From: Loxodes magnus
Lineage: Eukaryota > Ciliophora > Karyorelictea > Loxodida > Loxodidae
Direction: 5' to 3'
Length of the DNA stretch: 64,000 bases
Assembly: GCA_946699065.1 (NCBI GenBank)
Contig: CAMPDV010002098.1
Coordinates: 1 to 64,000 of the forward strand
Shown here: piece after piece, positions 14,730 through 50,115 of the stretch
Layout: every line of letters begins with the position of its first letter
Position numbering within the stretch: position 1 is the stretch's first letter
Notes under the pieces: generated by a model
Databases searched by the model: none
What the model saw: only the letters and a program-made list of their open reading frames with translations
What the model was told of the DNA's origin: nothing
Translations under genes and position numbers: made by a program

Positions 14730-17700
14730 CTCATGGTCTTACAGGTACCTGTCTTGACGTCCCATAGTCTCACCGTATAATCATGACTTCCCGATACGAT
14801 GAACTCTGAATCACTGGATATAGCCACAGATGATACATAACTAGTGTGACCACTCATGGTCTTACAGGTACCTGTCTTGACGTCCCATAGTCTCACCGTA
14901 TAATCATGACTTCCCGATACGATGAACTCTGAATCACTGGATATAGCCACAGATGATACATAACTAGTGTGACCACTCATGGTCTTACAGGTACCTGTCT
15001 TGACGTCCCATAGTCTCACCGTTTAATCATGACTTCCCGATACGATGAACTCTGAATCACTGGATATAGCCACAGATGATACATAACTAGTGTGACCACT
15101 CATGGTCTTACAGGTACCTGTCTTGACGTCCCATAGTCTCACCGTCTAATCTACACTTCCCGATACGATGAACTCTGAATCACTGGATATAGCCACAGAT
15201 GATACATAACTAGTGTGACCACTCATGGTCTTACAGGTACCTGTCTTGACGTCCCATAGTCTCACCGTATAATCATTACTTACCGATACGATGAACTCTG
15301 AATCACTGGATATAGCCACAGATGATACATAACTAGTGTGACCACTCATGGTCTTACAGGTACCTGTCTTGACGTCCCATAGTCTCACCGTATAATCATG
15401 ACTTCCCGATACGATGAACTCTGAATCACTGGATATAGCCACAGATGATACATAACTAGTGTGACCACTCATGGTCTTACAGGTACCTGTCTTGACGTTC
15501 CATAGTCTCACCGTATTATCATGACTTCCCGATACGATGAACTCTGAATCACTGGATATAGCCACAGCATATACATAACTAGTGTGACCCCTCATGGTCT
15601 TACAGGTACCTGTCTTGACGTTCCATAGTCTCACCGTCTCATCATGACTTCCCGATACGATGAACTCTGAATCACTGGATATAGCCACAGATGATACATA
15701 ACTAGTGTGACCCCTCATGGTCTTACAGGTACCTGTCTTGACGTCCCATAGTCTCACCGTATAATCATGACTTCCCGATACGATGAACTCTGAATCACTG
15801 GATATAGCCACAGATGATACATAACTAGTGTGACCACTCATGGTCTTACAGGTACCTGTCTTGACGTCCCATAGTCTCACCGTATAATCATTACTTACCG
15901 ATACGATGAACTCTGAATCACTGGATATAGCCACAGATGATACATAACTAGTGTGACCACTCATGGTCTTACAGGTACCTGTCTTGACGTCCCATAGTCT
16001 CACCGTATAATCATAACTTCCCGATACGATGAACTCTGAATCACTGGATATAGCCACAGATGATACATAACTAGTGTGACCACTCATGGTCTTACAGGTA
16101 CCTGTCTTGACGTCCCATAGTCTCACCGTATAATCATGACTTCCCGATACGATGAACTCTGAATCACTGGATATAGCCACAGATGATACATAACTAGTGT
16201 GACCACTCATGATCTTACAGGTACCTGTCTTGACGTCCCATAGTCTCACCGTATAATCATTACTTACCGATACGATGAACTCTGAATCACTGGATATAGC
16301 CACAGCATATACATAACTAGTGTGACCACTCATGGTCTTACAGGTACCTGTCTTGACGTCCCATAGTCTCACCGTATAATCATGACTTCCCGATACGATG
16401 AACTCTGAATCACTGGATATAGCCACAGATGATACATAACTAGTGTGACCACTCATGATCTTACAGGTACCTGTCTTGACGTCCCATAGTCTCACCGTCT
16501 CATCATGACTTCCCGATACGATGAACTCTGAATCACTGGATATAGCCACAGATAATACATAACTAGTGTGACCACTCATGGTCTTACAGGTACCTGTCTT
16601 GACGTCCCATAGTCTCACCGTATAATCATTACTTACCGATACGATGAACTCTGAATCACTGGATATAGCCACAGATGATACATAACTAGTGTGACCACTC
16701 ATGGTCTTACAGGTACCTGTCTTGACGTCCCATAGTCTCACCGTCTAATCTACACTTCCCGATACGATGAACTCTGAATCACTGGATATAGCCACAGCAT
16801 ATACATAACTAGTGTGACCACTCATGGTCTTACAGGTACCTGTCTTGACGTCCCATAGTCTCACCGTATAATCATGACTTCCCGATACGATGAACTCTGA
16901 ATCACTGGATATAGCCACAGATGATACATAACTAGTGTGACCACTCATGGTCTTACAGGTACCTGTCTTGACGTCCCATAGTCTCACCGTCTCATCATGA
17001 CTTCCCGATACGATGAACTCTGAATCACTGGATATAGCCACAGATGATACATAACTAGTGTGACCACTCATGGTCTTACAGGTACCTGTCTTGACGTCCC
17101 ATAGTCTCACCGTATAATCATGACTTCCCGATACGATGAACTCTGAATCACTGGATATAGCCACAGTTCATCCAGAACTAGTGTGACCACTCATGGTCTT
17201 ACAGGTACCTGTCTTGACGTCCCATAGTCTCACCGTCTAATCTACACTTCCCGATACGATGAACTCTGAATCACTGGATATAGCCACAGCATATACATAA
17301 CTAGTGTGACCACTCATGGTCTTACAGGTACCTGTCTTGACGTCCCATAGTCTCACCGTATAATCATGACTTCCCGATACGATGAACTCTGAATCACTGG
17401 ATATAGCCACAGATGATACATAACTAGTGTGACCACTCATGGTCTTACAGGTACCTGTCTTGACGTCCCATAGTCTCACCGTATAATCATGACTTCCCGA
17501 TACGATGAACTCTGAATCACTGGATATAGCCACAGATGATACATAACTAGTGTGACCACTCATGGTCTTACAGGTACCTGTCTTGACGTTCCATAGTCTC
17601 ACCGTATAATCATTACTTACCGATACGATGAACTCTGAATCACTGGATATAGCCACAGATGATACATAACTAGTGTGACCACTCATGGTCTTACAGGTAC

Positions 17701-50115: not shown

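Follow-up and report, generated by a model that had tools for sequence, protein, structure and literature searches.

The 35-kb block of WD40 blades described here most likely represents a satellite of the ciliate Loxodes magnus that was amplified from blades 2-4 of a receptor-like gene family, and not the coding frame of a 12,000-residue protein. The larger finding is the tie, drawn from sequence comparison, between this blade satellite and a large, apparently diversifying family of receptor-like genes in a ciliate. The array probably spread out of this family, whose members vary at the four positions known from a fungal self-recognition receptor. In the scenario that we propose, the satellite unit, a single WD40 blade of 41 codons, would derive from blades 2-4 of genes that combine a pentapeptide part with a mostly seven-bladed WD40 propeller. 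In these genes, the codon comparison of seven members shows homogenisation of the central blades between loci, alongside diversification of the residues on the propeller's binding face. In the arrays, copies would multiply and be homogenised in blocks of several units, and the unit length, the frame and the gene-like variant sites would be carried along passively. About 7% of the L. magnus assembly consists of a single protein blade whose coding unit does not vary in length, a clear case of a gene and a satellite sharing sequence.

A tandem array of one WD40 blade

The window, the whole 64,000-nucleotide stretch of L. magnus DNA analysed here, was recognised by TRF as a single array with a period of 123 and 0% indels, extending from position 2 to 64000. 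The entire 73,585-bp contig (C2098) consists of this array, and the array is cut at both contig ends (Table 1). The block delimited in an earlier note on this DNA is real, but the array runs past it and past the window. Wrap-around alignment to the unit consensus yielded 0 indels across the 35,386 bases from 14,730 to 50,115, which bears out the note's count of about 287 blades without an indel, arranged head to tail in complete 123-bp units. Equally correct was its observation that positions 15,146 and 49,955 lie exactly 283 x 123 bases apart, a matter of arithmetic, and that the block keeps to one reading frame, as all WD40 motifs found at 14,755-50,116 share a single frame on the minus strand. 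Within the block, bases 123 apart agree at 95-98%, and 115 of the 287 units sit in exact duplicate runs of at least six units. The longest of these are tandem duplications of 12 and 11 units, the latter being a footprint of block-wise homogenisation.

Table 1. Features of the L. magnus window (positions within the 64,000-nucleotide stretch)
Feature	Position	Strand	Remarks
123-bp WD40-blade satellite array	1..64000	-	fills the whole window and continues to the contig end at 73,585; TRF, motif frames
Indel-free 35.4-kb block	14730..50115	-	287 complete 41-codon units (60 distinct), one frame
Dirty flank 1	1..14729	-	59 indels, of which 43 are homopolymer changes, and 8 rare substitutions; consensus probably of low quality at the contig end
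Dirty flank 2	50116..58553	-	19 indels, of which 13 are homopolymer changes, and 4 rare substitutions; consensus probably of low quality
Second indel-free stretch, beginning	58554..64000	-	extends to contig position 73,585 (15 kb)
Example unit ending VD[TAG]	47864..47986	-	standard stop read as Q, the residue preceding TVRLW
Seven consecutive units, AlphaFold2 single-sequence fold a WD40 propeller	47453..48313	-	
Exact 11-unit tandem duplication	45773..48478	-	copies 47,126-48,478 and 45,773-47,125
Exact 12-unit tandem duplication	34088..37039	-	copies 35,564-37,039 and 34,088-35,563

Each 123-bp unit encodes one WD40 blade of 41 codons (Pfam PF00400, E 1.4e-45 over four window units). Seven units, modelled by AlphaFold2 without an alignment, gave a best model with a mean pLDDT of 92.8 and a pTM of 0.90; four of the five models scored above 90 and one at 43. 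The predicted fold is closest to the seven-bladed design 7bie (TM 0.93), and 2ymu, a repetitive propeller, is among the ten best matches. A model of 21 blades was of low confidence (mean pLDDT 52) and uninformative.

Under the standard code, the frame that the earlier note had envisaged as translated through is not open. Its 286 units contain 40 in-frame stops (41 across the 287 complete units), TAG in 20 and TAA in 11 cases at codon 40 and TGA in nine at codon 22 (0-based), which rules out a giant frame in that code. The frame is stop-free with code 27, once TAA and TAG are read as Q and TGA as W. In the NCBI table of this code, UAA and UAG specify Q. Read in this way, Q precedes 'TVRLW' and W sits in the strand before 'VAIS', presumably the usual residues at these two WD40 positions (unit codons 40 and 22). 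As tubulin matches in the same genome also contain TAA, TAG and often TGA (best 150 of 258, most of them spanning the whole Pfam model), and as Q and W are presumably common at these positions, a pseudogene reading of the stops is ruled out. The block's standard stops are sense codons for Q and W, and the impression of an array full of stops arises solely from giving UAA, UAG and UGA their standard meaning. In the published account of the 706-Mbp somatic assembly of L. magnus, code 27 is given, with UAA and UAG not serving as stops and UGA as either W or stop (PMC11441545). The tubulin genes are themselves strongly amplified (for example on C64 and C441), with 150 of 150 matches significant among the best 150 of 258 first-look candidates, and C441 carries them as a head-to-tail series with a spacing of 3,342 bp.

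What, then, accounts for the absence of indels in the block? That the flanks hold many, as the earlier note had stated, is confirmed by the alignment (Table 1). Taken together, the two dirty stretches show just 12 rare substitutions beside 78 indels (56 homopolymer changes); in the contig's two clean stretches, 8 rare substitutions are accompanied by 0 indels (Fisher p = 8e-7 for the contrast). Mutational decay would yield more substitutions than indels; neutral decay was therefore rejected as the cause of the flank indels, for which consensus error is the best reading, and the difference between clean block and dirty flanks is probably technical. Nor is the block special in being free of indels. 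The stretch at 58,554-73,585 has 0 indels in 15,032 bases, C914 has 0 in 30 kb and C100 has 0 in 36.1 kb. Three were found in 30 kb of the same 123-bp unit on C1838, and 0 in 2.2 kb on C6. On C4, a 3.1-kb stretch has 8, all of them the same one-base insertion, a frameshift, whereas two others of 2.5 and 1.3 kb have none. Over longer distances, the sampled phases vary along C914 and C1838, which amounts to net indels. Of the two explanations offered in the note, coding constraint or recent homogenisation together with good base quality, the second fits the block. Its lack of indels would reflect recent block copying and an accurate consensus rather than selection to maintain a protein of 12,000 residues. 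Constraint on coding does exist, though elsewhere, in the gene family whose central blades match the unit.

Given the clean arrays on C914 and C100 and a non-synonymous lean among common variants, some selection may act on the arrays themselves. Among 1,185 units from five stretches (134 complete C2098 units outside the clean stretches and three C100 edge units were dropped), variants present in at least 20 units are 26 non-synonymous to 3 synonymous, against 26:13 among the rarer ones (Fisher p = 0.04), with neither class alone departing from the expected 285:84 (p = 0.12 and 0.13). Such a lean is also expected if the arrays inherit gene variation.

The pentapeptide-WD40 gene family

Ten stretches were fetched at the first-listed matches to the unit core, a non-random sample; they comprised four ordinary genes, two isolated core fragments in AT-rich DNA and four array stretches, which come from two arrays. 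With four further genes fetched via the N-terminus, eight were read, all of which combine a pentapeptide-like N-terminus with WD40 blades (Pfam PF00805 above cut-off in both of the two tested). All but L046, which is irregular and does not enter the statistics, have seven regular blades. In these seven genes, blades 2-4 match the satellite unit, with 1-14 bases separating each from the closest array unit collected, and divergence is greater in blades 1 and 5-7. The solved structures closest in sequence to a family gene are 2ymu and 7bie.

As to the size of the family, all 150 scored N-terminal matches, the best of 2,268 first-look candidates, have E <= 1.5e-43. Pairing these with the best 150 C-terminal matches yielded 53 genes and left the other 97 N-terminal matches unpaired; the search with the C-terminal cap, whose 78,234 first-look candidates were swamped by other WD40 repeats, served for pairing only and gives no gene count. 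Among the 53 paired genes, 48 have about seven blades, two have six, one has eight, one about fifteen, and one is irregular, and in 50 the gap between the N- and C-terminal matches is a multiple of three. The longest (C1802:76638-78920) accommodates 13 blades between the N-terminus and the last two. Of the best 150 N-terminal matches, 32 lie on larger contigs (C3-C194), and 17 of these fall within 50 kb of a contig end, against 3.9 expected with most contig sizes interpolated; either the genes are subtelomeric, or the assembly breaks at adjoining arrays. Two family N-termini that were scanned contain pentapeptide repeats and no NACHT domain. A NACHT gene was rejected as the source: the genome holds 31 weak matches, and by eye none is within 100 kb of the best 150 listed family matches.

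Synonymous divergence is distributed very unevenly along the genes. Among the seven regular genes (21 pairs), pS reaches 0.63 in the pentapeptide part, stands at 0.33 for blade 1 and at 0.20, 0.20 and 0.35 for blades 5-7, and drops to 0.09 in blades 2-4, the pattern of near-identical blades that evolve in concert. Between gene blades and array units, pS is 0.064, and among array units it is 0.016. The central blades are therefore kept alike across genes and arrays. L048 blades 2 and 4 and L055 blade 4 carry a second silent haplotype (TLRLYNIKTG type) that resembles blade 1; the closest array unit collected is 11-14 bases away. Conversion among the blades of one gene would be expected to leave such a haplotype.

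At the same time, a few positions of these blades are highly variable. The most variable of the 41 positions in the 21 central gene blades are 25, 27, 9 and 7. In the Podospora anserina proteins HET-D and HET-E, WD40 codons 7, 9, 25 and 27 are described as being under strong positive selection; they flank the conserved positions 8 and 26, and on the propeller they occupy its top, within the d-a loop and b-c turn (PMC1805685). For four positions given in advance, as these were by the fungal paper, the chance of being the top four of 41 is about 1e-5. By simple counting, in place of a likelihood test, pN is 0.542 against a pS of 0.137 at the four codons, and 0.041 against 0.084 at the other 37. 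V8 and D26 are conserved in 21 of 21 gene blades, and the modelled strands (8-13, 19-24, 28-33 and 39-43 in the first blade of the seven-unit model) place positions 7, 9, 25 and 27 at or beside the loop and turn named for the fungal repeats. Among array units, codons 25, 27 and 9 likewise vary most, with position 7 ranking lower. The likely source of the satellite is a very large gene family that bears a strong signature of diversification on its binding surface, and which may point to an undescribed recognition system in ciliates.

Abundance, edges and alternative readings of the arrays

The 20-base unit core GATTCAGAGTTCATCGTATC has 404,353 exact matches in the assembly (0 for the reversed control), which corresponds to 49.7 Mb or 7.0% of its 705,730,643 bases if each core stands for one 123-bp unit. 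This very high tandem copy number and the homogenised duplicate runs are features of satellite DNA. The arrays span tens of kilobases, reaching the length of a 166-kb contig: C914 (166 kb) and C1838 (87.8 kb) are array at every point sampled, and others are embedded in the megabase contigs C4, C6 and C9. They presumably lie within the 231 Mbp of low-complexity tandem repeats published for the L. magnus assembly, in an account whose main text does not use the word WD40 (PMC11441545). In the library searched, no paper was found that pairs Loxodes with WD40. Such systems can go unseen when repeats are masked and the standard genetic code is applied.

The array edges observed are four 5' edges: those on C100, C4 and C6, which belong to the 123-bp unit, and that on C9, which belongs to a sister family. 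All four begin abruptly in AT-rich DNA, and no family N-terminus was seen in the translations at any of them. The C100 array shifts frame within its first four units. It is because of these abrupt AT-rich edges, the C100 frame shift, the eightfold insertion on C4 and the phase differences along C914 and C1838 that we take the arrays as satellite. A few kilobases upstream of the C100 array, fragments of a retroelement, reverse-transcriptase-like by eye, are present (C100:768-769.4 kb). Degenerate WD40-like fragments, also identified by eye, lie just before the C4 array edge (C4:2,224,801-2,225,700), as if the array had arisen beside or inside a decayed WD40 gene.

HiFi reads are shorter than these arrays. 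Could the true array in our window be much shorter, the contig having been built by false overlaps between near-identical reads? We regard this as possible but rather unlikely, and it would concern the length of the array, not the nature of its repeat. The assembly was built from HiFi reads with Falcon overlaps at 96% identity, and its authors themselves warn of misassembled low-complexity repeats (PMC11441545); in addition, bases 123 apart agree at 95-98%, and the contig ends in array on both sides. However, false overlaps would not account for the unit, the frame or the variants. Arrays are also found inside the megabase contigs C4, C6 and C9, and in the unassembled reads 0.68% of k-mers occur at least 1,000-fold, as stated in the assembly paper (PMC11441545).

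A second alternative would add a function to the satellite explanation without excluding it. Here, silent arrays would serve as a donor archive that supplies binding-face variants to expressed receptor genes by gene conversion; in its boldest form, a genome-wide archive of at least 400,000 blades would feed hundreds or more seven-bladed receptors that have converged, codon for codon, on fungal allorecognition. If true, this would constitute a diversification system in a ciliate that, according to the published analysis, does not extensively edit its genome. We consider both the general and the bold form improbable. In its favour, gene blades and array units have most silent sites in common (pS 0.064), and the codons that vary are largely the same in both. 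Gene-typical K27 is absent from the 1,185 array units, yet has 84,481 occurrences genome-wide, for example in an array on C21; the sampled arrays are therefore poor in variants, and the whole set holds more. Blade 3 of L057 is just one base from an array unit. However, only one of the 21 gene blades has a variable-site haplotype that is represented among the 1,435 array units collected, and a few haplotypes make up most of the arrays sampled. It is simpler to read the arrays as a by-product of a blade that recombines.

That the block is part of one giant gene, transcribed and translated as hundreds of WD40 blades with selection keeping the frame, is highly improbable: while its 35.4 kb are indel-free and open under code 27, seven of its units are predicted to form a good propeller, the common variants are for the most part non-synonymous and cluster at codons of the binding face, and long stretches of sister arrays are just as clean, the longest of the 53 genes paired from the best 150 matches per end reaches only about 15 blades, the edges on C100, C4 and C6 are abrupt and show no family N-terminus, frameshifts occur in the first four units on C100 and in eight copies of one C4 stretch, the phases differ along C914 and C1838, and at least 404,353 copies would be hard to explain as a needed protein. 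The block is probably not one giant gene, and the product longer than most known proteins that the earlier note had considered is not supported.

Relation to known repeat systems

Gene-derived satellites are tandem copies of a coding piece, homogenised block-wise and with abrupt edges in AT-rich DNA. The Loxodes arrays resemble this class in all of these respects; they differ from it in that their source family is still numerous, and in that its homologous blades remain close to the satellite at silent sites. A further likeness is to the highly repetitive, recently amplified beta-propellers, such as 2ymu and the WRAP designs; the closest solved structures are 2ymu and 7bie for the sequence of a family gene and 7bie for the fold of seven window units. 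The survey of repetitive propellers reports at most 47 highly similar consecutive blades, whereas the Loxodes block has 287 free of indels, as satellite DNA and not as a demonstrated protein.

Among receptor genes, the closest parallel is the HNWD/NWD family of Podospora anserina (het-d, het-e, het-r), whose near-identical WD40 blades are reported to undergo concerted evolution (PMC1805685). The Loxodes gene blades likewise diversify at 7, 9, 25 and 27, the numbering having been matched by landmarks and spacing rather than by alignment to fungal sequences. Unlike the HNWD genes, they are preceded by a pentapeptide N-terminus, NACHT being absent from the two scanned, and their seven blades include three that are homogenised. 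There are about 400,000 copies in Loxodes, nearly all outside the genes seen, compared with the 69 WD40 sequences that the fungal study gives as analysed in P. anserina. Among ciliates, the leucine-rich-repeat genes of Tetrahymena with their 90-bp exons are described as comprising units of a single exact length by the tens of thousands (PMC6564038). Loxodes is alike in having ciliate repeat-protein units of one exact length in very many copies; however, the Tetrahymena units are exons within genes and separated by introns, whereas the copies in the Loxodes arrays that were read are contiguous and lie outside recognisable genes.

The sister family, a second set of WD40-blade arrays with a 126-bp unit, is represented by 3,717 exact cores. 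Verification of the unit covered C6957, C119 and C9, and spacings on others among C1503, C1832, C620 and C272 agree with it. In a thin sample of 91 units, 12 of them distinct, its four most variable positions are those matching 27, 25 and 9, with the numbering shifted by one, and another that is the most variable. The stretch sampled on C9 shows many frame changes, and 10 kb of C6957 run without a frame break.
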